DNA of 64,000 nucleotides from a virus. The notes beneath the pieces are model-generated. The model made no database searches. It was not told where the DNA came from and saw nothing but the letters and a program-made list of their open reading frames with translations. Positions 7,966 to 45,800 of the stretch are shown here, piece by piece. Both the position numbers and the translations under genes were made by a program. Location of the stretch: IMG/VR virus record IMGVR_UViG_3300032053_000067, positions 1 through 64,000 of that record; one strand, given 5' to 3'. Positions within the stretch are counted from its first letter, which is position 1. Each line of letters starts with the position of its first letter.

Positions 7966-8448
7966 ATGGGAAACATAGGATACAACGGCGAATGCGGCGA
8001 TGGCGAGCCGCTTATCGGGATACCGGAAGGGGAACATTATTTCCGGGTACGTAATGTCACAAAAGGGTTTGACGAAAAACATCAATGCGATGCGGCTACC
8101 GTCACGCTTGAAGTCAGGGCGGGCGAAACCACGGCTACGATACAAGACAAGCTCCCGTGCCACACCGCGTTCGAGTGGAAACTTGGCGCTTTCTTTAAAT
8201 CGCTCGGCCTCCGCAAGTCGGGCGAGAAGCTCCGCATGAACTGGGACGCCGCGGTAGGCCAGTGGGGCCGGTGCAAAATCGTCATTAAAAAGGGCCGCGA
8301 ACGGGATTTTCATAACATCGGTTCGTATCTCGACCGCAACGGCAAACAGCCGCCGGCGTGGTGTGTCGAGCCGCTCGGTGCGGCCGCGGCCCCTGCGCCA
8401 CAGCGGCAGGCGCCAGAACCAACCGAAGACGACGGTGCCCCGTTTTGA
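7966..8448 (+). CDS. SSB-like phage single-strand-binding protein (DUF669-like)
   Basis: 160 residues with AAAAGGAGA before the start. The N-terminal ~120 residues look like an OB-type beta barrel (GEHYFRVRNVTKGFD, KCKIVIKKGRERD region). The tail is Ala/Pro/Gln-rich, flexible, and ends in the acidic tip TEDDGAPF, the hallmark of SSB C-termini that recruit partners. Such DUF669-like proteins commonly sit beside Sak4-type ATPases. It would coat ssDNA during replication or recombination. Confidence 0.7.
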   Translation: MGNIGYNGECGDGEPLIGIPEGEHYFRVRNVTKGFDEKHQCDAATVTLEVRAGETTATIQDKLPCHTAFEWKLGAFFKSLGLRKSGEKLRMNWDAAVGQWGRCKIVIKKGRERDFHNIGSYLDRNGKQPPAWCVEPLGAAAAPAPQRQAPEPTEDDGAPF

Positions 8449-8509
8449 CGGGAATGAATCACAACCGGCAGACGCGCGGCGTGTTCGCGTGGGGCGGGTG
8501 GGCGTGGTG

Positions 8510-9622
8510 ATGACGTACTACAACGATAATGATGGCAAGGCGTGCGCGTGGTTGTGCGAGTTACAAGCGGCGGGGTTGATTACGGCCGGCCTGATTGATG
8601 ATAGGAGCATTTGTGATGTGCGAGGAAACGACCTTGCGGGATTCGAGCGGTGCCACCTCTTCGCCGGGATCGGCGGATGGGATTGCGCATTACGACTCGC
8701 CAAGTGGCCGGCAGGTGTTTCCGTTTGGACAGGTTCCCCGCCCTGCCAGCCGTTCAGTTGCGCCGGCAAAGGGGCGGGCGAAAAAGATCCCCGCCACCTG
8801 TGGCCCGAGTTTCGACGCCTCATCGCCGAGTGCCGTCCTCCAAGCGTCTTTGGAGAGCAGGTTGCGTCAAAGGCTGGACGTCAATGGCTCGCTGGAGTAT
8901 TCACTGACATGGAAGCACTGGGATATGCCTGCGCGGGTGCCGATCTGTGCGCTGCGGGCATCGCGGCGCCGCATATCCGGCAACGCCTGTACTGGGTGGC
9001 CGTCGCCGAATCTATGCGAGCGGGGAGCGGAGTTGAAAGAGTCGAAAGACAAGCGCGGATCAGGCGGGGTGGATTTGCAGACGGCGGCCACGCTCGCGGG
9101 GTGGCGATCTCCGGCGGTGCAGAATTCTCAGGGCGGGCCTCTCTCACCGGAGAAAACAAATGCGCGGTCGAGGTTGACGCTTCAGTCCCAGGCGGTCCTT
9201 GCGGGCTACCCGACGCCACAATCGTACAGCTTTCAAGAGAGCCACGCGCCTGGGCAAGTGAAACTGGACTTGTGTGCGAAACTGGCGGGCTTTGCAACCC
9301 CGCGGGCGGAGGAGCGGTCTCAACGGAACAGCCGGGACAATTACGAGGCACTATCGAAACAGGTTTCTGGAGCGATTACGACGTCATCCCGTTCCGCGAC
9401 GGGAAATCGCGGCGTACTCAACCCCGCTCTGCCCCGTTGGTTATTGGGCTACCCCGAGGCGTGGTGCCTTGCGGCGATCCGCGCATCGAGGACGTTAACC
9501 AAAGCGCGGAGGCGCGGGTGATGCGATTGAAAGGTTACGGGAATTCGATTTGCGCGCCACTTGCGGCGGTGTTCATCAAGGCAGTAATGGACTGGCTAGA
9601 AACAGTGGAGGCGACAGCATGA
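8510..9622 (+). CDS. C5-cytosine DNA methyltransferase (Dcm family)
   Basis: 370 residues from the ATG at 8510. Conserved motifs are present in order: I, CHLFAGIGGWDCAL; IV, GSPPCQPFS with catalytic Cys79; a VI-like FGEQV instead of ENV; VIII, APHIRQRLYWVA; and X, GYGNSICAPLAAVFI. The late stretch FWSDYDVIPFRDGKSRR is also typical of phage cytosine methylases. The target-recognition region between VIII and X is low in complexity (Gly/Ala/Arg-rich), because most of it lies opposite a second open gene in another frame (8616-9521). Role: modify phage DNA against host restriction. It overlaps the adenine methylase gene (ATGA). Confidence 0.9.
   Translation: MTYYNDNDGKACAWLCELQAAGLITAGLIDDRSICDVRGNDLAGFERCHLFAGIGGWDCALRLAKWPAGVSVWTGSPPCQPFSCAGKGAGEKDPRHLWPEFRRLIAECRPPSVFGEQVASKAGRQWLAGVFTDMEALGYACAGADLCAAGIAAPHIRQRLYWVAVAESMRAGSGVERVERQARIRRGGFADGGHARGVAISGGAEFSGRASLTGENKCAVEVDASVPGGPCGLPDATIVQLSREPRAWASETGLVCETGGLCNPAGGGAVSTEQPGQLRGTIETGFWSDYDVIPFRDGKSRRTQPRSAPLVIGLPRGVVPCGDPRIEDVNQSAEARVMRLKGYGNSICAPLAAVFIKAVMDWLETVEATA
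8616..9521 (+). CDS. Nested gene inside dcm, +1 frame, 301 aa
   Basis: This frame lies wholly within the cytosine methylase gene but one base out of register. It begins at an ATG (8616) with AGGAG 8 nt upstream. The product reads like a real protein: SLEYSLTWKHWDMP, then RASRRRISGNACTGWPSP, then loosely repeated elements AGWRSP, AGYPTP and AGFATP at intervals of ~30 residues, and an ending VLNPALPRWLLGYPEAW. I recall similar proteins of unknown function, with GWPTP repeats and an LNP..RWLMGYP ending, annotated near phage cytosine methylases, but cannot confirm that here. The methylase frame is the one with poor composition across this stretch. Likely co-expressed with Dcm; function unknown. 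Confidence 0.72.
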   Translation: MCEETTLRDSSGATSSPGSADGIAHYDSPSGRQVFPFGQVPRPASRSVAPAKGRAKKIPATCGPSFDASSPSAVLQASLESRLRQRLDVNGSLEYSLTWKHWDMPARVPICALRASRRRISGNACTGWPSPNLCERGAELKESKDKRGSGGVDLQTAATLAGWRSPAVQNSQGGPLSPEKTNARSRLTLQSQAVLAGYPTPQSYSFQESHAPGQVKLDLCAKLAGFATPRAEERSQRNSRDNYEALSKQVSGAITTSSRSATGNRGVLNPALPRWLLGYPEAWCLAAIRASRTLTKARRRG

Positions 9623-10617
9623 CGCCCGCCACCCTAAAAGCGCCTATGCCTTTTTTCGGCGGTAAGTCAAAGGTCGCGGATCTAATTTGGTCTAAATTTG
9701 GCGACGTGCCGAATTTCGTAGAACCCTTCTGCGGATCGTGCGCAGTGCTGTTGGCCCGGCCATCGGAACCACGGATCGAAACCGTGAATGACGTTGACGG
9801 GCTGATTTGCAACATGTGGCGGGCGCTGAAAGCGGACCCGGAAGCCGTGGCTAGTTATGCCGACTGGCCAGTCCTAGAAAATTGCCTCCATGCTCGGCAC
9901 GCTTGGCTTGTCGGGCAAAAGGACGGTTTACAATCCCGGCTTGAAGGCGATCCCGACTACTACGACGCCAAGATCGCGGGGTACTGGCTCTGGGGTATGG
10001 CGTGCTGGATTGGTAGCGGGTTTTGTAGCGGCAACGGCCCGTGGCATGTGGTAGATGGCAAACTGGTTGACACGGGCGACGCGGGCCAGGGTGTGCAACG
10101 GCAACTGGTCCACCTTGGCGACGCGGGCCAGGGCGTGCAACGGAAACGGCAGATATTGAGCGGGGCATATTCGTCGGCAAAAGGCGCGGCAAACAAAACC
10201 GGCGAGGCGCTGTTGGAATGGTTCGCTGCGCTGTCAGATCGGTTACGCCGAGTGCGTGTCTGTTGCGGCGACTGGTCGCGGGTGTGTGGGCCGAGCGTGA
10301 CGTTCAAAAATGGGCTTACGGGAATTTTTATGGACCCGCCATATGCTGCCGGACGCGATGACAACCTGTACCGGGTTGATAGCACTGATGTAACCCATGA
10401 TGTTGCCGCGTGGTGCATCGAGAATGGCGATAACCCGTTACTGCGGATCGCGCTGTGCGGGTACGACGGCACCATGGACATGCCCGCATCGTGGGAATGT
10501 GTGCCATGGAAAACGCGCGGCGGGTACGGATCGCAGGGGGGTGGGCGCGGGAAAGCGAACGCGGGCCGGGAGCGGATTTGGTTCAGTCCCGCATGTTTAC
10601 AAACGGAGTTGTTCTAA
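9619..10617 (+). CDS. N6-adenine DNA methyltransferase (Dam family)
   Basis: 332 residues, started at the ATG overlapping the dcm stop (9619). It has the D12/Dam-class signature: PFFGGKSKVADLIW, the SAM site FVEPFCGSCAVLL and the catalytic DPPY at 239-242, and ends KANAGRERIWFSPACL. An unusual insert holds two exact copies of DAGQGVQR (10078-10142 region) in a tandem 42-bp repeat. Together with the cytosine methylase it would give double methylation of phage DNA. Confidence 0.9.
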   Translation: MTPATLKAPMPFFGGKSKVADLIWSKFGDVPNFVEPFCGSCAVLLARPSEPRIETVNDVDGLICNMWRALKADPEAVASYADWPVLENCLHARHAWLVGQKDGLQSRLEGDPDYYDAKIAGYWLWGMACWIGSGFCSGNGPWHVVDGKLVDTGDAGQGVQRQLVHLGDAGQGVQRKRQILSGAYSSAKGAANKTGEALLEWFAALSDRLRRVRVCCGDWSRVCGPSVTFKNGLTGIFMDPPYAAGRDDNLYRVDSTDVTHDVAAWCIENGDNPLLRIALCGYDGTMDMPASWECVPWKTRGGYGSQGGGRGKANAGRERIWFSPACLQTELF

Positions 10618-10660: not shown

Positions 10661-13243
10661 ATGAACCTCCGCCCGTACCAGACAGCCGCCGTGGAAGCCG
10701 TCGAACGCGGCTGGGGCGAGTTCCAGCGGCAGCTTGTAGTGATGCCCACCGGTGTTGGCAAGACGATCTGCTTTGCTCATCTCGCGGCACGCGAGGCGGC
10801 GCGCGGCGGTAACACGATGATCCTGGCGCATCGTGACGAACTGCTCCAGCAGGCCCAAGACAAGATCCGCGTCGCGGTCGGTATGGATAGCGCACTCGAA
10901 AAAGCCGATAGCATCGCCTATGACGGGCTGTTCCGGAAACCGATCACGGTGGCCAGCGTCCAGACGCTGCACGCCAAACGCCTTGAGAAATGGGCACCCG
11001 ACGCCGTGGACTTGCTCGTTGTAGACGAGGCCCATCACGCACTGTCTGACAGCTATAGAGCAATCATTAACCATTTCAGTAACGCCCGCGTGTTGGGTGT
11101 GACGGCTACACCTGATCGCGGCGACAAACGCGACATGGGCGAGGTGTTTGAAGGCATTGCCTACGAGTATTCGATCCGCGACGCTATCGCGGACGGCTAC
11201 CTATCCCCGATTGCAGCCGAACTTATCCCCATCAAGATCGACTTGTCGAAAGTGCGGACCATGGCGGGCGATTACAACGTGGCGGACCTCGACGAGTCGC
11301 TGCTTCCTTATCTTGATACCGTCGCCCGCGAAGTGGCCAGCCACGTGGTTGCGCGGAAGACGTTGATTTTTCTGCCGTTGGTGCGCACGTCTCAGGCGTT
11401 TGCTAAACTGCTCCGCGACTATGGGATCTCGGCGGAACACATCGACGGCGCCAGTCCTGACCGAGCAGATATCCTAAAGCGATACGCGGCCAGCGAGTTT
11501 CAGGCGCTTTGTAATTCGGCGCTGCTGTTCGAAGGATACGACCAGCCGGACATCTCGTGCGTCGTGCCACTGAGGCCAACGCAGTCGCGGCCGCTCTATT
11601 GCCTTGATTCACAAACAGAACTGCTGACGCCATCAGGGTGGAAGTTAAACGTAGAGGTTGGCGATGACGTTGCGGCATGGAACAAAGAGACAGGCGAGAT
11701 TAGGTTTACACCAGCGATTGCGCAAACAAGACGTTTCCTATATCCAGATGAACATTTCATTTCGCTAGTAAGTCAGTCGGTGGATATCCGAGTCAGTAAT
11801 AAACATCGGATGATTTACGACAATAGAAGGCGGAACGGATGGAAATTTACCGAAGTATCGAGGCTTGCTTCTTTACGCGACACGTCTTATATACCAGTGG
11901 CGGGGTGCGCCTCAACGCCCGGGGTTCCTCTTTCTAATGATGAATTACGTTTTATAGGATGGGTAATGACGGATGGTTCTATCAACAAACACAATGGCGG
12001 TATTGCTATTACCCAGGGCGAACACCAACCATGGCTTGAAGACATCCAAAAGTGCATTGATGGGTGCGGGTTTAAATATAACAGGTTTGTAAGAGTAAGG
12101 TGTGGTGCTTTCAAGGCTAATAGCGATTGTGTGACATGGACAATATCTAAAGGGGTGCCGCGTGGCAGGGATAAACATTTGCGCGGATGGGGAGCACTTG
12201 AGCCGTGGCTGTCTAAAGACTTCGCGCCGGCATTAATGGCTGTTAATAATAAACAATTTGATGTTTTACTTAAGGCTATCCATCTCGGTGATGGCCTTAA
12301 ACAGAAGTCGTTAAATTGGACACAGCGGTCTTACCATATTTCTAAAGGAAATAAGGCTTTTATTGAACGCCTTCAAATTTGCGCGTTGATGCATGGATAT
12401 CGTGCAAACATTTCTGCTGTTAAGGTATTACCAGGAAGACAACCCCTCTATTACCTTCATCTCAAAAAACAAGAATGGTCAAGAGTTGGTGGGCAACGCG
12501 GAGATCGGCCATCATGGAAAATTGAACCGCATTCAAAAGAAGAATGCTGGTGCGTAGAAAACGAATTTGGAACACTCGTAACCCGCCACAACGGGAAAGT
12601 GGCTATTGTTAGTAATTGCCAAATGGTCGGACGCGGCACCCGGATTTTTCCCGGCAAAGAAAATCTGTTGGTGCTTGACTTCCTGTGGCAGACCACGAAA
12701 CACAAACTCTGCCAGCCCGCTTCGCTGTTTGCCCATTCGGTCGAGGAAGCCGACAGCATCATGGCGCAAGTAATCCCCGGCGGCGGGCAGATAGACCTGC
12801 TCGAAGCCGAGGCCGACGCCAAAAAACAGCGGGAAGAATCTCTGCGGAAGAAGCTGCAAGAGACCCAGAAAAAACAGCGGCGTTCGATTGATCCGGTTTC
12901 GTTTGCGCTTTCTATCGATTGCATGGATCTAGCCGAATGGGAACCCGAAGCGGCATGGCATGAGAAAACCGTCACGGACGGCCAGCGAAAGGCATTGTCG
13001 AATTTTGGCATTGACCTCGCTACTGTGACGTGCCGCGGCCATGCGTCCGCGATTCTCGACGTGATTTTTGCGCGCCGACAAGCGGGACTCTGTACGCCGA
13101 AACAAGCGGCCGTGCTCAACAAATATGGGTATTCGTCTAATACCAGTTTCGAGGAAGCGAAGGGACTTATTGACACCATCGCCGCAAACGGGTGGCAACG
13201 GCCAATACTCGTAGTTGCAGCACCATTACCACTAGATTATTAA
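10661..13243 (+). CDS. SF2 DEAH-type helicase interrupted by an intein
   Basis: 860 residues before splicing, 521 after. Extein parts: Q-motif-like MNLRPYQTAAVE, Walker A MPTGVGKT at 28-35, DEAH at 122-125, the GVTATPDR motif III region, KTLIFLPLV (motif IV) and GYDQPDISCVV (motif V), then motif VI split by the intein (PLY | CQMVGRGTR). It ends with a Lys/Gln-rich coiled coil and a small helical C-terminal domain (~730-860). It resembles phage DEAD/SSL2-type helicases found with methylases and replication genes, probably for replication or restriction evasion. The alternative upstream start at 10397 lies within the Dam gene and is not needed: the ATG at 10661 begins the conserved domain, though its ribosome site (GGGACGC) is weak. 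Confidence 0.9.
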   Translation: MNLRPYQTAAVEAVERGWGEFQRQLVVMPTGVGKTICFAHLAAREAARGGNTMILAHRDELLQQAQDKIRVAVGMDSALEKADSIAYDGLFRKPITVASVQTLHAKRLEKWAPDAVDLLVVDEAHHALSDSYRAIINHFSNARVLGVTATPDRGDKRDMGEVFEGIAYEYSIRDAIADGYLSPIAAELIPIKIDLSKVRTMAGDYNVADLDESLLPYLDTVAREVASHVVARKTLIFLPLVRTSQAFAKLLRDYGISAEHIDGASPDRADILKRYAASEFQALCNSALLFEGYDQPDISCVVPLRPTQSRPLYCLDSQTELLTPSGWKLNVEVGDDVAAWNKETGEIRFTPAIAQTRRFLYPDEHFISLVSQSVDIRVSNKHRMIYDNRRRNGWKFTEVSRLASLRDTSYIPVAGCASTPGVPLSNDELRFIGWVMTDGSINKHNGGIAITQGEHQPWLEDIQKCIDGCGFKYNRFVRVRCGAFKANSDCVTWTISKGVPRGRDKHLRGWGALEPWLSKDFAPALMAVNNKQFDVLLKAIHLGDGLKQKSLNWTQRSYHISKGNKAFIERLQICALMHGYRANISAVKVLPGRQPLYYLHLKKQEWSRVGGQRGDRPSWKIEPHSKEECWCVENEFGTLVTRHNGKVAIVSNCQMVGRGTRIFPGKENLLVLDFLWQTTKHKLCQPASLFAHSVEEADSIMAQVIPGGGQIDLLEAEADAKKQREESLRKKLQETQKKQRRSIDPVSFALSIDCMDLAEWEPEAAWHEKTVTDGQRKALSNFGIDLATVTCRGHASAILDVIFARRQAGLCTPKQAAVLNKYGYSSNTSFEEAKGLIDTIAANGWQRPILVVAAPLPLDY
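11600..12616 (+). other. LAGLIDADG intein in helicase motif VI
   Basis: The 339-residue insert runs from Cys1 (CLDSQTELLTPSGWK, block A) to VSN (block G), with Cys as the +1 extein residue. Block B is VSNKHRM. The two dodecapeptide nuclease motifs are LRFIGWVMTDGS (Asp125) and LKAIHLGDG (Asp231). Block F is CWCVENEFGTLVTRHNGK. The penultimate His is replaced by Ser, which occurs in some active inteins. Removing it restores an uninterrupted PLYCQMVGRGTR. Its DNA is visibly AT-richer than the flanking extein and uses different codons (TTT, AAA, TTA, ATT), pointing to a recent arrival as a homing element. Both acidic nuclease residues remain, so homing may still be active. Confidence 0.93.
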
Positions 13244-13275
13244 CAACAGCGGCGCAGGCCGCGAGGAGGCATGAC

Positions 13276-13563
13276 ATGAAGCTAGATATTTGCGGCAACG
13301 ACAAGACGCTGTATAGCGCCCATGGTGAATACGAACCCGGTGACCAAGCCCTTGAACCGTGTCCGTTTTGCGGTGGCATGGATATAGAAGTAGACAATAC
13401 ACACACCCCACATTATACGGCTATTTGCCAAACCTGCGGAGCGGAAAAACCAGCGGCAGATTCCAGGAGTAGCGGAAACCATTCCAAAACAAAGGCGGCT
13501 TGCAGGCGCGCCCATAGACGTAGCTTTCAGTCTGCAATTGATGAATGGAACAAAAGAGCATAG
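13276..13563 (+). CDS. Lar-like restriction alleviation protein
   Basis: 95 residues from the ATG with GAGGAGG 8 nt upstream. The Lar family pattern is present: LEPCPFCGGMDIEV, a central YTAICQTCGAEKP and a C-terminal AIDEWNKRA, giving a two-Cys-pair zinc ribbon. Lar (Rac prophage) alleviates type I restriction by affecting host modification; Cys4 Lar-like proteins are common in phage early regions. The placement right after the two methylases and the helicase fits an antirestriction block. Small zinc-ribbon proteins of this type are sometimes named Lar only by homology, so the activity is unproven. Confidence 0.75.
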   Translation: MKLDICGNDKTLYSAHGEYEPGDQALEPCPFCGGMDIEVDNTHTPHYTAICQTCGAEKPAADSRSSGNHSKTKAACRRAHRRSFQSAIDEWNKRA

Positions 13564-15910: not shown

Positions 15911-16086
15911 CGTGCCAATGCCAAGCCCGACAGCGCCTAAAAGGGCTATCCAAACATGCCCGAAAGGTTTACCGGGTTAGAAAAAGACGATTCGTGGGCT
16001 GGAGAACAACAGCGCAGTTATACGCAGACGCGCTTGGTGAACTTGTAGAGGCCGTCCATGCGGCGGCGAGAGGAGAGGGAACGTGA
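15907..16086 (+). CDS. Small basic protein (59 aa), unknown
   Basis: GTG at 15907 overlaps the preceding TGA and its own TGA overlaps the next GTG (16083), so both ends are coupled. Basic N-terminal half (ARKVYRVRKRRF) and a helical C-terminus. No ribosome site stronger than the coupling itself. Function unknown. Confidence 0.5.
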   Translation: MTCQCQARQRLKGLSKHARKVYRVRKRRFVGWRTTAQLYADALGELVEAVHAAARGEGT

Positions 16087-16784
16087 AAACAATACTGTAT
16101 GAAGACGGTCTGTGTATTATTCAGTATCATCCCGAAGGGTTTTTTGTGGCACATGACACAAAGCCCGATGAGCCAATACAACGGGCGGTGGGCGAGGCCA
16201 TTAAGCGCCTTGTCTATGAATGTGCCGCCGCCCGCGCTGAACTCGCCACCGTGAAACAGGAACGGGAGGCCGATCTAATCACCGTTCGGGACGTTCAGGA
16301 TATGGCAACACGTGCTGTCGCGGCTGTACGCACCAATGTCGCTGCCGAACTCGCCGCGCTCCAGCAGTGGCGGGACTACGTATTAAGTGCACTACGGGGA
16401 TTGAAACGATGGAAAATAGACTGGAAAGGACAGCGTGTATTAGCGGACGAACGTGGTATGTGGACTGGTTACGCCGCTCTCCAAACCCTGCTCGCGCCGC
16501 CTGCGCCGAAACAGGAGGCGCGACAGCCCGCCGAGGTGTTCCCGCCGAGTGAGTATATCCGCGAGGAAATGGAAAAGCGCGGGTGGGACCGCCTTGCGTT
16601 ACTAGATGCAACAGGGACAGACCGCGTACTAGATGAACTGGTGATGAACGTAGTCGATCACAATGCCTGTGTCACCCCTGACATCGCCGCCGCGCTTGAC
16701 CGCGCATTTGGTACCGGCCCGGACGTGTGGCTGAACCTCGACCGCGTGTGGCGGGAACGGCAACAGGAGACACAAAATGGATAG
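16083..16784 (+). CDS. Coiled-coil protein with C-terminal HigA-like HTH
   Basis: 233 residues from a GTG with GAGAGGAGAGG upstream. The N-terminal ~150 residues are mostly coiled coil (ECAAARAELATVKQEREADL). The C-terminal ~75 residues match the shape of HigA-type antitoxin/XRE domains: FPPSEYIREEMEKRGWDRLA, a short turn, then ITP-like VTPDIAAALDRAFGTGPDVW and LNLDRVW. No HigB-type toxin gene is seen next to it, so it may be a phage antidote or a regulator that captured an antitoxin domain. Confidence 0.65.
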   Translation: MKTILYEDGLCIIQYHPEGFFVAHDTKPDEPIQRAVGEAIKRLVYECAAARAELATVKQEREADLITVRDVQDMATRAVAAVRTNVAAELAALQQWRDYVLSALRGLKRWKIDWKGQRVLADERGMWTGYAALQTLLAPPAPKQEARQPAEVFPPSEYIREEMEKRGWDRLALLDATGTDRVLDELVMNVVDHNACVTPDIAAALDRAFGTGPDVWLNLDRVWRERQQETQNG

Positions 16785-18993: not shown

Positions 18994-20103
18994 ATGAGCG
19001 GGAAAACGAAAATCAGTTGGGCGGATGCAACATGGTCGCCGACCCTCGGCTGTGCCAAGTGCTCGCCGGGCTGTCTCAATTGCTACGCCGAGCGTATGGC
19101 CGTACGCCAAGCCGCGATGGGGACGCGCGGGTATGCCGACGTGGTGACGGACAGCCACTGGAACGGCAAGACCCGGTTCATTGAATCCGAACTAGACAAA
19201 CCGCTGCACTGGCGGAAGCCGCGCACGATTTTTGTGGATTCTATGAGCGATCTGTTTCACCCGGATGTGTCCGATAAAGACATTATAAGGGTATACCAGA
19301 TAATGAGCCGGTGCCCGCAACACCATTTTATGGTGTTGACAAAACGAGAAAAGCGGATGTTCAATTTTCTCCAGTTGGCTGCTCGATGCAAACTTATTGG
19401 CCCATTCGACTGCCCCCCATACATGTGTCCTGAAAAGTGTTGCAAAAGCAACATGGTAGATATGCCCCTCGCCAACGTCGCGCACGGCGTCACGGTCTGC
19501 AACCAAGAGGAGACGCCCAAGCTCGACCTGCTGTGCCAGATCCCCGGTAAGCTGTGGGTGAGCTACGAACCCGCTCTCGGCGAGGTGGATTTTAGGCCGT
19601 GGTTGCCTGCCGACTATTGGTGTACTTGCGGTTATTCAGGCAATCATGCAGAGAGTATCTGCCGGAACTGCGGCGAAGCGTTTCCGCCGCCCGGTCCTGA
19701 TGGCGATGACGTACCGTGCGAATGCGGTTGTGCCTTCTATGAGGATCATTGTCCGGAATGCGATCTTGGGGTTTATTCATGGAGCAACACGAGAGGCCCA
19801 GACAGCGAGAACGCGGCGAGCGAGAAGGCATTGGCAATGCGGGCAAATCGCCTCTCACTCGTAGTCGCCAGCGGCGAGACTGGCCCCGGCGCGCGGCCAG
19901 CACATCCGCAGTGGTTCCAGGACGTGAGGGATCAATGCGTAAAGGCGGGGGTGCCGTTCCACTTCAAAAGTTGGGGTAGTGGATGGCGTACCCGCGACTG
20001 GATGGCGCGATTAGACGCCGCAAGCGCAGGATGGGATTACAACGAGCGCAACGGTGGCCGCATGCTGGACGGGCAGGTATACGATGAGGGGATCGCGTGG
20101 TGA
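18994..20103 (+). CDS. Phage Gp37/Gp68 family protein (DUF5131)
   Basis: 369 residues. The family signature is strong: ISWADATWSPTLGC, Cys20-x6-Cys27-x2-Cys30 followed by YAERMA, then IFVDSMSDLFHPDV and FMVLTKRE, and a late SGETGPGARPAHPQWF with HFKSWG. The three-Cys motif resembles a radical-SAM cluster site, and the family is often described as radical-SAM-like, but its reaction is unknown to me. This member carries a ~60-residue Cys-rich insertion (CTCGYSG, CRNCGE, CECGC, CPEC) that probably binds two zinc ions. Its stop overlaps the GTG of the replication gene. Confidence 0.85.
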   Translation: MSGKTKISWADATWSPTLGCAKCSPGCLNCYAERMAVRQAAMGTRGYADVVTDSHWNGKTRFIESELDKPLHWRKPRTIFVDSMSDLFHPDVSDKDIIRVYQIMSRCPQHHFMVLTKREKRMFNFLQLAARCKLIGPFDCPPYMCPEKCCKSNMVDMPLANVAHGVTVCNQEETPKLDLLCQIPGKLWVSYEPALGEVDFRPWLPADYWCTCGYSGNHAESICRNCGEAFPPPGPDGDDVPCECGCAFYEDHCPECDLGVYSWSNTRGPDSENAASEKALAMRANRLSLVVASGETGPGARPAHPQWFQDVRDQCVKAGVPFHFKSWGSGWRTRDWMARLDAASAGWDYNERNGGRMLDGQVYDEGIAW

Positions 20104-22166
20104 ACCCGCTTGACCGTTGCTTGGCCTATGTGGACAAAATGGAGCCCGCGGTGTCTGGCGCAGGCGGCCATAACGCCACGTTCGCGGTCGCCTGTGAGAC
20201 GGTCCGGTTTGGCCTTGACGACGTCGACGCGCTCAGCGTGCTCAACTGGTACAACTCGAGCCGGTGTACGCCACCGTGGTCGTCCCGCGAGCTCGCCCAT
20301 AAACTCACGTCGGCCCGCCAGGAATGCGGCCCCGAAGCCGGTATCCGGTTGCGCGACGACCAACCCGCTAGTAGCGGCAATGGCCACGGGCGCGCGATCC
20401 CGTGGGACGGGTTCATTGGCGGCGAACCTGCAGCGCCCGTACTCGGGCGGCGGCCGGAATGGGAAACCGCCGATATGCCCGAGTTCCTGCAGTCGTTGTT
20501 CCGCCCCGGCGAGCTTATATCCTACAATGTCGATGCCAAGCTGGACGCCGATGGTCGCTGGAAGCCAGACGGGTATGGTATCCGGGGCCGGCTGCTCGAG
20601 ACGTTTCTTACAGGCGAATCGGCGGCCTCTATTGTCAGCCCCCACACTGAAGCCGGCGCCTGGGTCCGCCTCAATCCCATGGACGGGAAGGGGATTGCCG
20701 ACAAAAACGTCAAAGACTACCGGCACGCACTCGTCGAGTCTGATTCGATGCCCGTCGAGGCCCAGCTTGCGCTTATCAACAAGCTCCGCCTGCCATGCGC
20801 CGCAATCGTCCATTCGGGCGGCAAATCTATCCATGCGGTCGTCAAAATCGAGGCTGGCGGCGACCTCGATCTATACCGGGCCCGCGTGAAACGCCTCTAT
20901 GGCGTGCTCGCCGCACACGGGATGGCGGTCGATGGCCACAATGGAAACCCGTCCCGGCTGTCCAGGTTGCCCGGTGTCAAGCGCGGCGAGTCCCCACAGT
21001 ATTTGATAGCCACCCTCCTCGGCGCCGCGTCATGGGGCGACTGGGACGCAGCCATGGCCGCTGAACCAGCCCCGGGCGAGTTTGCAGACCTGACCAACTG
21101 GTTGACTATGGCCGATCAGCCGGTTCCTTGGATTTTTGAGTCTGCTATACCCGATCTCACCGTGACGGTGGTTGGCGCCCAGGGCGGGCTCGGGAAAAGC
21201 ATGTTTATCACCGGCCTGGCGCTGTCGGCCGTGCTCGGCCGGACGTTGTTCCCATCGTTTCAGGTATCGGCGCCGATCCCCGTCTTGTTCTTGGCTGGCG
21301 AAGACTCCCTTCCTATTATATGTCGCCGTATCCGGGCCTACGTCTCAGCCAATGAAATATCTCCTGACGAGGTAACGGCCGCTTTGACATCCCGCCTGTT
21401 CCTGCAGTCCATGCAAGCCCATCCAATGCTCGAGCTGGCATCGACCCGGACTCTCAAACCCACCGCGTTTTTCGATTCCATCAAAGCGGCCGCCCGGGCG
21501 CGCGCAGCCAAGCTCGTCATCATCGACACGTCCCGGAAGTTTGGCGGCATCGTCAACGAGATCGATAACGCCCAGGTTGGCGCATTCATGGAAGTTTGCG
21601 CTCAGCTTGCCAAAGACTGCCACTGCGCCGTCGTCGTGCTCCATCATTCGTCCAAAATCGCCGCGGACGAGAAAGAGGCGAAACAAACCGACCTACGCGG
21701 CGGATCCGCGTTCGGCGACGAGGCCCGATGTGTATGGGTGTTGAAACGACGCAAGGACAAGCGGATCGAAGCCAGCAACCAGAAGATGTCCTACGGCACC
21801 GCGCGTCGGCCCGTGGTGCTCGAGTTCCTCGAGGACGGGGCGCTGGTCGAGTCGAACCGCCGCTCAGATGACAAGTCTCGGCTCGCCGAAGAAGACGCAC
21901 AATTAGCAGTTCTAGCTGTCCGCGAGTGGGTGATTGCCAATCCAAATATCCCCGTATCGGCAACTCGTGTATGTCACAGGCAACAGACAGAAGAGGCAAA
22001 AGCACTCTTCGAAGCCATGGGGAAACGGTTTATCTGGATGACCTGGACTCGGCTTGCCGAGGTCGTTGGGATAGGGTTGAGAGCGGGGATTCTAGATGAC
22101 GTAAAGGTCAAAATCGGTCGCGCGTACAAGGCCGCCATCATCCCTGGGAAGGTCGAAAAATGGTAG
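20100..22166 (+). CDS. Primase-helicase replication protein
   Basis: 688 residues from a GTG overlapping the previous TGA. Residues ~1-80 look like a PriCT-type helical domain (TFAVACETVRFGLDDVDALS). Residues ~130-330 look like an archaeo-eukaryotic-type primase: an acidic ESDSMP near the start, HSGGKSIHAVVK near 238-249 and NPSRLSRLPG. Residues ~345-560 are a RepA/DnaB-like hexameric helicase core with Walker A GAQGGLGKS (359-367), FLAGEDS, LVIIDTSRKF (Walker B) and VVLHHSSK, RGGSAFGDEARCVWVL. A helical C-terminus follows. The likely job is origin opening and priming; the iteron array begins 9 bp after its stop. Confidence 0.82.
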   Translation: MNPLDRCLAYVDKMEPAVSGAGGHNATFAVACETVRFGLDDVDALSVLNWYNSSRCTPPWSSRELAHKLTSARQECGPEAGIRLRDDQPASSGNGHGRAIPWDGFIGGEPAAPVLGRRPEWETADMPEFLQSLFRPGELISYNVDAKLDADGRWKPDGYGIRGRLLETFLTGESAASIVSPHTEAGAWVRLNPMDGKGIADKNVKDYRHALVESDSMPVEAQLALINKLRLPCAAIVHSGGKSIHAVVKIEAGGDLDLYRARVKRLYGVLAAHGMAVDGHNGNPSRLSRLPGVKRGESPQYLIATLLGAASWGDWDAAMAAEPAPGEFADLTNWLTMADQPVPWIFESAIPDLTVTVVGAQGGLGKSMFITGLALSAVLGRTLFPSFQVSAPIPVLFLAGEDSLPIICRRIRAYVSANEISPDEVTAALTSRLFLQSMQAHPMLELASTRTLKPTAFFDSIKAAARARAAKLVIIDTSRKFGGIVNEIDNAQVGAFMEVCAQLAKDCHCAVVVLHHSSKIAADEKEAKQTDLRGGSAFGDEARCVWVLKRRKDKRIEASNQKMSYGTARRPVVLEFLEDGALVESNRRSDDKSRLAEEDAQLAVLAVREWVIANPNIPVSATRVCHRQQTEEAKALFEAMGKRFIWMTWTRLAEVVGIGLRAGILDDVKVKIGRAYKAAIIPGKVEKW

Positions 22167-22500
22167 TGAATCTCACGGTGTCGCACGGTGTAGCACGGTG
22201 TCGCACTTTTCTAATCTGCTACACCGTCACGGTGTCGCACTCACGGTGTAGCACGGTGTCGCACTCGATGCGTTGCTACACCTTTAAGTCTAGTCATACC
22301 AAGAACTTCGACGGTGTAGCAAATAAAGTGCTACACCGTGGTTTTTGCAGTTTCTGTAAGCCACATAATGTCAAGGGGTTACGCGAATCTGACGGTGTAG
22401 CATTTTACCCTATCTCCTACGGAGATATATACGCCGCTCTTGTGCGAGCGGCTAATATCCCGCTTCACGGGAGATACGCGCGCACGATTGCGCACCCCGG
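22167..22500. other. ori: Gene-free segment, candidate replication origin
   Basis: No credible gene: frames that cross it only read through repeats. It contains at least ten copies plus one degenerate copy of an 11-bp iteron (listed separately), AT-rich pockets (22201-22216, 22321-22328, 22402-22412) and a perfect inverted repeat TATCTCC-TAC-GGAGATA at 22411-22427. Position directly after the primase-helicase gene is typical for phage and plasmid origins. A multi-operator regulatory region is the alternative. Confidence 0.65.
22175..22402. repeat. Iterons ACGGTGT(A/C)GCA
   Basis: Forward copies at 22175, 22185, 22195, 22229, 22243, 22253, 22311 and 22392. Inverted copies at 22217-22227 and 22329-22339, plus a degenerate inverted copy at 22274-22283. 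Runs of three and two copies overlap by one base, giving a 10-bp period, about one helical turn. The variable base is A or C at position 8. Such phased, bidirectional iterons usually bind an initiator protein. Confidence 0.9.
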
Positions 22501-22509
22501 ATGTGGCTT

Positions 22510-22845
22510 ATGAAATACCCACGGTGGCGCACGCACAAGTTCAACGCCAGACGATGCACCGTCAACGGCATCAAGTTTCCATCGAAGCTCGAAGGCCGAG
22601 TCTACATACGGCTACTGGCTGACCAAGAGGATGGACGGATTCGCGATCTTAAACTTCAAGTCGCGTATGTACTTCAGGAGTCTCCAAAGATTACATACAG
22701 AATCGACTTTGCCTATATTGACTGTGTCACCGATGAGTTGGTGCTCATCGAAGCCAAAGGGAAGGAGACCGACGTGTTCAGACTCAAATTGAAACTCTTT
22801 GCAACCCGATACCCTGACCTCGACCTGCGCGTGGTGACGTCATGA
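22510..22845 (+). CDS. DUF1064-type putative nuclease
   Basis: 111 residues from the second ATG (22510); a start at 22501 is equally possible as neither has a good ribosome site. The family pattern is present: KFNARRCTVNGIKFPSKLEG with the Glu, an acidic residue in ITYRIDFAYID, and the core VLIEAKGKETDVFRLKLKLF with the E-x-K catalytic pair, the PD-(D/E)XK fold layout. DUF1064 proteins are common in phage replication regions and are suspected Holliday-junction or other structure-specific nucleases. Immediately downstream of the origin candidate. Confidence 0.8.
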   Translation: MKYPRWRTHKFNARRCTVNGIKFPSKLEGRVYIRLLADQEDGRIRDLKLQVAYVLQESPKITYRIDFAYIDCVTDELVLIEAKGKETDVFRLKLKLFATRYPDLDLRVVTS

Positions 22846-24050
22846 CTTTGGACTGTTTCGCCCGTCGCGTCCATTTCGTCGACCACCTCGCGCCTGTCTG
22901 GCGAGCGTTGCCGCTGGAAGCCCGTGGGACGTTCTGGGTGCCGGAAGCCCTGGTGGATTATGCGCGTATCCGTGGTGTTGACGCGACGGGGGTGGCGCCG
23001 GTGCGCCGGCAGTTGCCGCCACTCGAGGTGTGGCCGCAGCCAGGCCGGGGTCCGGTGCTCTGCTGCGCGTATGGCGATATCGAGCAGGTCTGGAAAGCTG
23101 ACCGGCGGCGCCCGTTGATTCTCATGGAACACGGGGTCGGGCTGACGCCGGGAAACTCGGTGGACGGCAGAGAGGTGTTGTCCCCAGGGTATGCAGGCGG
23201 CGGGGACTTGCGTAAACGGGTGGTGCTCTTCCTGGCAACAAACGAGTTTATCGCGGCCAAGACGCGGCGGGCCATCCCTAGGGCGTGTCAGGTGGTCGTT
23301 GGGACGCCGAAGATGGACCGGTGGGCGAATCCGGTTGGTGAAGTGGTGATGTCTCAGAAAATCATCGCGGCTGCGGCGGCGTACCCGGAACCATATGCGG
23401 GTCCGTTTGGACGGGCGGCGTTGGCATGGTCCCATAAAGTATCCCAAAACTATGTGCCTGCGACGGCAACTGAAATAAGGATGTTGATGACACAAAGACC
23501 ACGGCCCGTCGTTGCAATCTCCTGGCACTGGGACGGCCACCGTGTTTGCCCCGAAGCCGGCAACGCCTGGAAATATTTCAAACGCGGCATCCCGGCGCTG
23601 TGTGGGCGGTATCACGTCCTGGGGCACGGCCACCCGAAGATCATGGATTTCTTGGCTAAGGAGTATGAGGCGTTGGGTTGCGGGATTGAGATCGTGCGAG
23701 ACTTCGAGGAAGTTCTCGAACGCGCCGACGTGTACGTGAACGATGCGTCGAGCACGTTGTACGAGTTTTCGTGTACGGGAAAACCCGTGGTGGTTTGCAA
23801 CGCGCCATGGTTCCGGCGCAATGTGGATTATGGTATCCGGTTCTGGCGCTGGTCGGACGTCGGCGTGGAGTGCAACGAGCCCGGGGAGTTGTTGGACGCG
23901 GTGGCGCTGGCGCTGGAAGACCGGCCGGAACAACAGGCAAAACGGCGGAAGGCCGTGGCCGACTTGTATCCTTATCTCGGGCGGAGTGCGGAAGTGGCCG
24001 CGGCGGCGCTGGTGGAATTTTTGAAACAACACGAGAAGGAGACGCCATGA
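22842..24050 (+). CDS. GT-B glycosyl/glycerophosphotransferase-like protein (TagB/TagF-like)
   Basis: 402 residues, ATGA-coupled to the nuclease gene. Signatures of CDP-glycerol:polyol glycerophosphotransferase-type GT-B enzymes: LILMEHGVGLTPG, VVVGTPKMDRW, ISWHWDGH, YHVLGHGHPKI, then the donor-site ADVYVNDASSTLYEFSCTGK and VVVCNAPWFR. It begins a three-gene cassette with a methyltransferase and a GT-A enzyme, all overlapping by 4 bp. Possible roles: decorating phage capsid or tail, or altering host surface glycans to block superinfection. The substrate cannot be told from sequence. Confidence 0.75.
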   Translation: MTLDCFARRVHFVDHLAPVWRALPLEARGTFWVPEALVDYARIRGVDATGVAPVRRQLPPLEVWPQPGRGPVLCCAYGDIEQVWKADRRRPLILMEHGVGLTPGNSVDGREVLSPGYAGGGDLRKRVVLFLATNEFIAAKTRRAIPRACQVVVGTPKMDRWANPVGEVVMSQKIIAAAAAYPEPYAGPFGRAALAWSHKVSQNYVPATATEIRMLMTQRPRPVVAISWHWDGHRVCPEAGNAWKYFKRGIPALCGRYHVLGHGHPKIMDFLAKEYEALGCGIEIVRDFEEVLERADVYVNDASSTLYEFSCTGKPVVVCNAPWFRRNVDYGIRFWRWSDVGVECNEPGELLDAVALALEDRPEQQAKRRKAVADLYPYLGRSAEVAAAALVEFLKQHEKETP

Positions 24051-42837: not shown

Positions 42838-45800
42838 ATGCCGATACGGATAGACAAGTTTCTCGGGATGATCCCGAAACTGCATCCAGCCCAGTTGCCG
42901 GACGGCGCCAGCGTCGTCTGCCACAACTTTGTGCCATCGAGCGGTGCCCTGGTCCCGTTCAGCGCCACCGGGCCGTTCACCGTCCTCCATGACGAAGCCG
43001 GCCTGTTGTTGCCCGGCATCCCGGCCACCGAAGTTGTGACAATAGCGAAACCGGTTGCGCCCACCTTGAAATCTAAGGCGTGGCAGTGCCGTCCCGGTCC
43101 CGGAAACTGGCTGAATATCACGCTGGCGACATTTCTGAGCGTGGTTGACGCGGCCGGTGGCCGGGCAACTTATGTCTGGCACGCGCTGCCGATGGTTTAT
43201 CGGTATCACTACACCGAACGCGGCATGAACCTGTTTTGCTACGCGGGCGTCCCCGGCCCCCTGATTATGCCACTGGGCGGCCCCTACTACTTCCGTGGCC
43301 CCCGGTTCATGTTCAGTTTTGGGGCAAAACCCGGCGTGTATGGCGGGCCGGCGACTGCGGAAGACGTGCCGGGGTACGTTTTGCCGGGCAGCCCGGTGTA
43401 TAGCCGTAATGCGATCCCGCTGATCAATGCCGCCCAGAACGTTTACGGCGAATTTCAGGTTGTGGACTATTCCGGTCCTGTCTGGGACGAGGATTTCATG
43501 GTCTCCGATTATGAAACTTATACATACTGGTTTGCCCCGTTCTATTGCAGTTTCCGGATCGACCTGAATTACGCGGAACCACGGCGCACCCACAACTATT
43601 ACGTCACAGCGGAAGTAGATGACCAAGACCGGGAAGGCCCGCCCAGCGAGATATCCCCGCTGATCGTCGTCCGGCCCGGCGAAATACCGACTGTCCACAC
43701 GCCGCATACGGCGCGCCGGGTGCGGTTATACCGGAGCGAGACGGGGCGGGACGTGGATTTCCGGCTCATCGAGGAAGGCACGTTTGTCGAGTACGAAGAC
43801 CCGCCAACCCCCGCTCAGGACGACGAGATCCCGCCGTTTGGCGACTGGGCGGCTACGGGCGCACCCAGCGTAGTAGAATTGCTCCGGGGGAGCGTGGCCC
43901 ATCCCGCGGGGTTCTTGGCGTGTTTTTATGGCGATACGGTGTGGTTGTCGGACCTGCTTCGCCTGCACGTGTTGCCGGAAGAGAATACACATAAGTTTCA
44001 GGAACCCGTTTTGGCACTGGCGATGGCCGGCGACACGATTTTGGTGTTTACGGAAACAACGGAAACGGACGGGATAACGCAGCAAGGCGGGGTTTACGCA
44101 ATATCCGGTAACGACCCGAGCCAGATGGCCTGCTACAAGATCAGCGGGTCAACGCCGCTCCTGAACGTGGTGGGATTGGCCCAGGTGGGCAACATGGTCT
44201 ACTGGCCGACATACGACGGCTTGGCGGTCAGTAATGGGTCGACGGTCGAGATCCCGACCTCGAACTACTGGTTGCGCAAAGACTGGATAGCGTTGCAGCC
44301 CGAGTTGATGATGCTCGAATCCGAGCACGACTGCTTGTACCTGAACGCCTCGTTTACGCCCGCAGCGTTGCCGCCAAGCGGCCCCGGCTACCACGGAATC
44401 CACATAAAATGGGAAACCCTGATGCTCCCGACTTTCCTTGGCGCCGAGGCGCCCGGAAGCGGCCTGAGACTTCGCATTGATCTAAAGGACGAACTGGCGG
44501 CCGTCACGACGTTCTCGGGGTACGATGGCGGCGGGGGCATCTGGCGGAGCCGACTGTTCGAGTTCCCTGTCGAGACCGCGTTCGATTTCATCCGGGTAGG
44601 CAGTTCGAGCGTGGTGACGGTTGTGGCTACCATCGACGGCGTCGACCAGGCGGGGGTGGATGTGCCTGACGATGACAAGGTCGCGGTCACGTGGCCGCAC
44701 GGGCGCTATTACCAGTTCACGTTCAGGGGGACAGGGACAATAACGAGTTTTGAAGCCGAAGACCGGGTGATTGCGGCGGGCCAGGACGTTCTGGTGTTCA
44801 CACCCGAGACCGTATCCAGTTTCAGGAACGTCCGGTTCCGGTATTCCGAGCCGCAGACCATTGCGGCTATCGCCCTGACGTGCCAGTCGGCGGCCGCCGT
44901 GACCTTGTCGATGTACGAAGGGGCCGAAGTTGACCCGTTTTACACTCTGACCGGCATATTTGACCGGATCGTCCCCATACCATTGGCCAGCCGGGTTCGT
45001 GCGACTGATTTCAGGATCGAGGTGGATACCGAAGTCAGGATCGAGCAGTTGGTCGTGGCGCGCGAGGTGTCGATGCCGGCCGGTGAGGTAATCCAAGAGG
45101 CAAACGCGGGGTTGGTGTCGTCGTGGTTGACCAAAGTGTACACTTTTGTACAAGGCGCGCAGACCCGGAGCGTCCGGGTGTCTGCCACTGAGCCGGTGAC
45201 GATGCGCCTGTATTACGACGACGCGACAACGCCGAGCGAAGAACTGGAGATTGGGGACGCCTGGGAACATCGCGTGGTCAGCGCGAGTTTCACGCGGTTG
45301 CGCTACTGCTTTGTGGACGACGACGACCTGCCTGCGGACCATTTGGCGGGATCGGTGGTGGTAGCCACGTCCGTGCCGACGGAAGCGCCGGCTGAGGGCG
45401 TTCACCTGCTGGGGGCACCGGCCTACCGCGGGCAAGTCTACCGGTTCCATGAGCGAGGCCGGTACAGCGCAATCCAAGTCACGGCAGACGCCTACCCGTT
45501 GTGGTTGGACATCTACGAGTGGGCTGACCGGGAAGATCCAGCTTACACGGTCGTGATAAGCGACGATAAGACTGTCGCCCTGCCATGGGACGTAAGCGAG
45601 ACCCCGACGTTGTGGGAGTTCGACCTTCGAAGCACCAAAACGGGGCTGGAAACCCGCGTACACGGGATGCACCTGTATCCGAAGACGGGGGTGCAGTCGG
45701 CGGACGACATCCATGTCGGCAATAGCGGCGGCGGTGCGCCGTGGTTGTGGGCGCGCTACGAGTTCGAACGAGCGACGCGGTTCTGCTCGAGGCGCATAGA

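Follow-up and report, generated by a model that had tools for sequence, protein, structure and literature searches.

What is the function of a dense cluster of short repeats that lies directly behind the gene of a phage replication protein? This question is raised by a virus record of 65,084 bases, of which bases 1 to 64,000 were analyzed in this study (hereafter, the window). The repeats, or iterons, begin 9 bp past the stop codon of a primase-helicase gene (20097-22166). Ten exact copies of ACGGTGTMGCA (eight on the plus strand and two on the minus strand) and one copy with a single mismatch were found, all within 22175-22402:

22175..22402, no strand assigned: iteron array, proposed origin, 11 copies of ACGGTGTMGCA
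22175..22185, plus strand: iteron 1, ACGGTGTCGCA, exact pattern match
22185..22195, plus strand: iteron 2, ACGGTGTAGCA, exact match, with one base in common with each of iterons 1 and 3
22195..22205, plus strand: iteron 3, ACGGTGTCGCA, exact pattern match
22217..22227, minus strand: iteron 4, ACGGTGTAGCA, exact pattern match
22229..22239, plus strand: iteron 5, ACGGTGTCGCA, exact pattern match
22243..22253, plus strand: iteron 6, ACGGTGTAGCA, exact pattern match
22253..22263, plus strand: iteron 7, ACGGTGTCGCA, exact pattern match
22274..22284, minus strand: iteron 8, degenerate, AAGGTGTAGCA, one mismatch
22311..22321, plus strand: iteron 9, ACGGTGTAGCA, exact pattern match
22329..22339, minus strand: iteron 10, ACGGTGTAGCA, exact match, stem partner of iteron 9
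22392..22402, plus strand: iteron 11, ACGGTGTAGCA, exact pattern match

An earlier note on this DNA had described these repeats as a dense, bidirectional cluster of ten good copies and one degenerate copy. The count was confirmed and is far above that of shuffled sequences: exact copies arise by chance at a mean of 0.18 and a maximum of 2 per 64 kb (200 Markov dinucleotide shuffles of the whole window), and at a mean of 0.002 and a maximum of 1 when the array region itself is shuffled. The array is bidirectional in the sense that iteron copies occur on both strands. Outside the array, the 65,084-base record contains no exact copy, and the reversed control pattern has no match in it; in a scan of the 64-kb window, four one-mismatch copies lie outside the array.

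The repeats had also been described as phased at 10 bp. The iteron spacings are, in order, 10, 10, 22, 12, 14, 10, 21, 37, 18, and 63, which limits the 10-bp phase to one triplet (22175/22185/22195) and one doublet (22243/22253). In Rayleigh tests, the array showed phasing at neither 10 nor 10.5 bp, and a signal at 11 bp was weak and uncorrected. Strict 10-bp phasing over the whole array is thus unsupported, and the description holds inside these two groups of iterons.

One open frame runs across the repeats:

22160..22513, plus strand: open frame across the array, judged non-coding

Its GC content by codon position is flat (0.50/0.49/0.55 versus 0.64/0.47/0.72 in the helicase gene), and it has no Pfam or PHROG match. 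The frame is probably not a gene, and a coding explanation of the array is unsupported, in agreement with the earlier note. No Rfam RNA was matched in 21900-22900 up to an E value of 1. Iterons 9 (plus) and 10 (minus), at 22311-22339, form a terminator-like structure with an 11-bp stem and a 7-nt loop, followed by the T run GGTTTTTG. This part of the array may thus serve additionally to terminate the primase-helicase transcript.

The protein encoded upstream is the candidate partner of the repeats:

20097..22166, plus strand: primase-helicase, 689 aa, proposed initiator, with a PriCT-1-like segment, an AEP primase, a RepA-type (AAA_25, SF4) helicase, and a C-terminal tail
21774..22163, plus strand: C-terminal tail (about residues 560-689), proposed iteron-binding part, by analogy with relatives

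The 689-aa protein matches AAA_25 in Pfam (E 5.8e-28) and the DNA primase family phrog_2597 in PHROG (E 2.4e-66). Its first matches in the PDB, by sequence and by fold alike, are 1g8y, 1nlf, and 1olo: phmmer found RSF1010 RepA at an E value of 2.1e-10, and the fold match to RepA (1olo) reached a Z score of 19.1 with an rmsd of 2.7 over 204 aligned residues, tied with 1nlf and 1g8y. Among the fold matches listed, which are filled by the helicase domain, there is no AEP or primase structure and no P4 or SaPI structure. The N-terminal fragment (residues 1-109) matches PriCT_1 with 19.0 bits (E 0.0011), below the cut-off of 21.1; its relatives L136 and L321 carry PriCT_2 at the N-terminus (E 3.4e-24 and 1.3e-21). 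The motif SxH (S244, H246) and the acidic pair E214/D216 are invariant in six-row alignments, and following PMC5862659 they may be read as AEP motifs II and I, respectively.

In the InversePrim proteins, PriCT precedes the AEP domain and is followed by a RepA helicase; all those in that study are prophage-encoded, and most members are from Firmicutes (PMC5862659). The window protein has a PriCT-like segment, an AEP domain, and an RSF1010-RepA-type helicase in the same order. The AEP domain has a histidine in the presumed motif II (phrog_2597; S244, H246), the RepA-family helicase is fused C-terminal to the primase (AAA_25; RSF1010 RepA fold), and matches to a terminase, a major head protein, and a head-tail adaptor or portal place the gene in a tailed phage or prophage. 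From this organization, the gene appears to be of the InversePrim type. A single-protein scan found no close relatives of the protein, and a second profile scan gave no match above 48% identity in the best segment. The gene order, which comprises a Sak4-like ATPase, an SF2 helicase, the primase-helicase, the gap, and a resolvase, resembles that of annotated phage relatives. Among 26 window ORFs scanned, no DNA polymerase, no Rep_3-type initiator, and no partition gene was seen. A DUF5131 gene (18994-20103) lies directly upstream of the primase-helicase gene; in another contig, a DUF5131-like start is found in one open frame with helicase-like sequence (L167:552-1139).

The array is not peculiar to this virus. 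A tblastn search returned 73 phage records with distant relatives, none of them covering 80% of the query, and in each of six phage relatives examined, short repeats lay close behind the gene, differing in sequence and clarity. Profile scans of viral contigs and of genomes gave 80 loci each. Together with the window, 167 loci were considered; 15 were dropped, and the 152 retained each have a stop codon followed by at least 400 nt. An array was called when the 350 nt at the stop codon held at least five non-overlapping copies of a 9-mer, with one mismatch allowed and both strands counted. By this measure, 95 of the 152 genes (window included) have an array at the stop codon. Among 596 control windows taken behind other ORFs in these loci, 14 do (Mann-Whitney p 1.9e-45). 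The window array, with a score of 11 copies, is tied for third place among the 152. The enrichment is also seen among genes with core identity of at most 80% (31/55 versus 4/214 controls). The other 57 genes fall below five copies, and some have no array at all. Arrays were rarely found upstream of the primase-helicase gene (2/144) or inside it (4/152). In the 95 arrays, the median distance between the stop codon and the first copy is 3 nt, and both orientations are present in 92.

The repeat sequence varies from phage to phage and from lineage to lineage. By eye, tails with ...KTVRNR.KEHGG... are often paired with AGGGAAAA, tails with ...KTVRR..KEHG... with GGGACAAA, and tails with ...DT.KRWFG.G.R... 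with TAGGGACG. This recurrence of arrays at one place, with a repeat particular to each relative, suggests that replication is initiated when the primase-helicase binds the repeats adjoining its own gene.

Which part of the protein may recognize the repeats was addressed by partial rank correlation with permutation tests in 73 dereplicated genes with arrays. With the core held constant, iteron similarity was correlated with similarity of the last 75 aa (partial r 0.352, reached in 0/2000 permutations); with the tail held constant, its correlation with the core was -0.071 (1841/2000 permutations). The earlier note had proposed that, if the primase-helicase is the initiator, its N-terminal helical domain may bind the iterons. 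The family data contradict this: the N-terminal 95 residues (PriCT) gave a partial r of 0.018, a value reached in 171 of 500 permutations, compared with 0 of 500 for the last 75 aa, and the AEP and helicase segments gave 0.007 and 0.029. The longest downstream ORF was weakly correlated with the iteron (0.098, 4/500 permutations), and the tail-iteron correlation was 0.349 after allowing for this ORF. The link persists without the window, at core identity of at most 80% (38 genes), and with a second iteron measure. When 12-residue segments were followed along the last 130 residues, the signal peaked at 0.347 at an HTH-like recognition helix, with a second peak of 0.306 in a basic linker, and was 0.199 at the end of the tail nearest the array. 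A maximum at the recognition helix, with lower values nearer the array, counts against mere linkage. Covariation column by column was weaker than the segment test; positions of the recognition helix ranked second and fifth. In Pfam, the relatives' tails gave weak HTH matches, all below the cut-off. These covariation results point to the C-terminal end of the primase-helicase, not the N-terminal end, as the part that probably binds the iteron.

For the window's own tail, AlphaFold (AF2) predicts helices only, with pLDDT mostly below 50 within the whole protein and 44.6 for the tail alone. The tail has no HTH family match in Pfam, and hhalign found no match to a helicase-tail family that adjoins arrays. 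A tblastn search with the tail against phage records gave two matches, at E values of about 2, and the best phmmer match in the PDB had an E value of 0.72. Three AAA_25 helicases (L278, L167, and L177) have an iteron of the window's type behind them; a winged-helix kinship between their tails and that of the window seemed plausible by eye, but it was not supported by BLASTP, MAFFT, or hhalign and is not proposed here. The genes whose iterons are closest to the window's have unlike tails (tail similarity 0.05-0.10). Since the window tail has no HTH match, confident model, or recognized kin, C-terminal binding is carried over to it from the relatives, and we infer that it may act as their tails are proposed to act.

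Between the array and the next gene lies a segment rich in predicted hairpins:

22411..22493, plus strand: four predicted hairpins (22411-22427, 22433-22452, 22455-22475, and 22480-22493), proposed opening or priming (ssi-like) segment
22501..22845, plus strand: DUF1064/Holliday-junction-resolvase-like gene (PF06356, E 5.4e-17; phrog_190, E 5.7e-29)

Folded as single-stranded DNA, 22400-22500 has a free energy of -23.6 kcal/mol (z -4.19, 0/200 shuffles); in the family scan, the 84-nt segment of the window has a z-score of only -1.7. For 73 loci, the best 84-nt segment within 450 nt behind the gene had a median MFE of -22.7 kcal/mol versus -14.8 kcal/mol in 150 controls (p 4e-22). The 5% point of the control z-scores was passed by 45 of the 73 loci, and part of this structure is due to the arrays' own inverted copies. 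Several relatives have a GC-rich stem between the array and the next gene, and annotated phage relatives carry RusA or a resolvase in the place corresponding to 22501-22845. By analogy with RSF1010 ssi, the hairpins may be opening or priming sites. GC skew was also considered as an origin marker. The cumulative skew rises over almost the whole window without a clean switch; a local rise at 22.5 kb is among the five largest changes, and the largest is a drop at about 26 kb.

Taken together, the array and the hairpin segment are probably the replication origin of the phage, with the upstream primase-helicase as the proposed initiator, which would bind it through its C-terminal domain. In such a mechanism, the C-terminal domain would bind the double-stranded iterons in both orientations, and the bound protein would gather RepA-type helicase subunits, which would form a ring as the neighboring DNA opens. 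The hairpins between the array and the resolvase gene would then be exposed and could serve as priming sites for the AEP domain, and the primers would be extended by a host polymerase. The interpretation of the earlier note thus holds in part. Arrays at the same place in most relatives make an origin whose iterons are served by the upstream primase-helicase the best-supported reading, and the family data speak against the N-terminal binding domain that the note named. Incompatibility or copy control, which the note raised as possible, gained no support.

The array might also be an origin whose iterons are recognized by a host initiator or by some other DNA-binding protein of the phage, which then recruits the primase-helicase. 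The lack of a match between the window tail and any recognized DNA-binding domain would fit this arrangement, as would the presence of the window-type iteron beside non-helicase genes in phages; a possible alternative binder is encoded at 16083-16784, where a match to an HTH-domain plasmid antitoxin was found (phrog_1381, E 1.2e-6). However, the arrays are located at the stop codon of the primase-helicase gene, and in relatives the iteron tracks the tail of that protein and not its other parts, in an analysis that covered the primase-helicase and the nearest downstream ORF. A separate binder is considered unlikely. It is improbable that the repeats are instead an operator cluster for a transcription regulator of the resolvase and later genes. 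Although the array lies between two genes of the same direction, and iterons 9 and 10 form the terminator-like stem with a T run, only one promoter-like site was found in 21900-22900, versus 0.7 expected from shuffles, and it lies inside the resolvase gene; furthermore, in relatives this gene end repeatedly carries arrays of 5-13 copies, almost always with both orientations present.

A different objection concerns the correlation itself, which could reflect linkage only, with neighboring sequences being exchanged together, while the array is a recombination hot spot, a partition site, or has another role. Tail and array are physically adjacent, and the downstream ORF is weakly correlated too (0.098). 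Nonetheless, the signal peaks at the recognition helix and is weaker in residues nearer the array, the correlation is hardly changed (0.349) by allowing for the downstream ORF, and the 26 ORFs scanned include no visible partition gene, all of which make this explanation very improbable.

The proposed recognition of the origin by the C-terminal end of the primase-helicase has parallels in other replicons. In SaPI Rep and SCCmec Cch2, a C-terminal domain of the helicase recognizes short iterons that directly follow the helicase gene, and the isolated C-terminal domain of Cch2 bound its site, as described in part of PMC7581432. The window iterons are likewise directly downstream of the helicase gene, as at the SaPI ori, and C-terminal iteron binding like that of SaPI Rep is proposed here from covariation in relatives. 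In contrast, the SaPI and SCCmec helicases are DUF927 or Primase_Cterm/D5-like, whereas that of the window is an AAA_25, SF4 helicase resembling RSF1010 RepA, fused to an AEP, in a tailed phage. The helicase of the phage P4 alpha protein belongs to SF3. Primase, helicase, and a C-terminal winged helix that binds origin repeats are combined in this one protein, according to the sections of PMC4234260 concerned. Unlike P4 alpha with its Toprim-type primase, the window protein has no Toprim or SF3 match and combines a phage AEP-type primase family with a RepA helicase.

In RSF1010, iteron binding, unwinding, and hairpin-dependent priming are split among three proteins, RepA, RepB', and RepC, in the parts of PMC4234260 and PMC4538821 that treat them. 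As in RSF1010, with its iterons and ssiA/ssiB, the window has a RepA-type helicase, an AEP primase, and iterons plus hairpins; unlike the three polypeptides of RSF1010, these activities would reside in a single 689-aa polypeptide, to which iteron binding is provisionally assigned. The pRN1 protein ORF904 is an AEP-helicase with a C-terminal winged helix, and an essential origin stem-loop lies directly 3' of its gene (in the relevant sections of PMC4234260). The origin element proposed for the window is similarly directly 3' of an AEP-helicase gene, but pRN1 has an SF3 helicase and, in place of iterons, a single large stem-loop. For InversePrim itself, the sections of PMC5862659 consulted describe no C-terminal HTH and no origin, and no account of the origin of InversePrim phages was found in the open-access literature searched. 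This literature gave no account of a phage protein that joins an AEP primase to an SF4 RepA-type helicase and, as we infer, to an iteron-binding end.

A broader interpretation, to which we give slightly less than an even chance, is that in a large class of self-starting replicons, the InversePrim phages, one polypeptide performs the three functions of RSF1010. In each lineage, a particular C-terminal DNA-binding helix would be paired with a particular iteron, and joint swapping of tail and array would renew the pair. If so, the recognition helix and the iteron would form a readable code, and the origin sequence could be predicted from the helicase tail. If the main reading is true, the origin would lie at one predictable spot in a widespread group of phages and prophages (Streptococcus, Lactococcus, Enterococcus, Paenibacillus, gut Clostridia, and others) that is experimentally unstudied as far as the open-access literature searched shows. 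The initiator and its DNA-binding end would be named, and dozens of natural protein-site pairs would be available for tests of how origin specificity changes. It would also suggest a way for an SF4-type helicase to be recruited to an origin with neither a separate initiator nor a separate loader.

The iteron itself was sought by pattern scans of viral contigs, which revealed the tandem form in three contigs and, in 110 stretches, three GGTGTMGCA separated by short gaps. At 46 of the resulting 113 loci, the 900 nt next to the array contained no ORF of 120 aa or more facing it. The 53 non-identical facing proteins included nine PD-(D/E)XK nucleases (each with a PDDEXK_1 match), four AAA_25, two VapE-like, two DnaB_C, and one DUF3987 protein. 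Several short contigs (L183, L185, L216, L221, L244, L246, and similar ones) carry GGTGTCGCA arrays, with copies facing each other, near the end of a PD-(D/E)XK-nuclease-like gene. Among relatives of L278, which is an AAA_25 helicase without a primase, arrays of differing sequence were found in 8 of 26 scored loci; L278, L281, L282, L302, L304, L307, and L308 have iteron arrays of varied sequence directly behind the AAA_25 helicase gene. A VapE-like helicase with zinc-ribbon and Toprim domains (L187:1652-3772) is followed by a GGGTGTCGCA array. The arrays beside other helicases and nucleases indicate that helicase-adjacent arrays extend past InversePrim, and that the window's iteron is not tied to one protein family.

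Elsewhere in the window, a 1859-aa open frame (42838-48417) has no Pfam match at an E value of 0.001. DNA methyltransferase matches and a Lar-like restriction-alleviation match were found at 8363-10617 and 13192-13563, suggesting that these may be counter-restriction genes.
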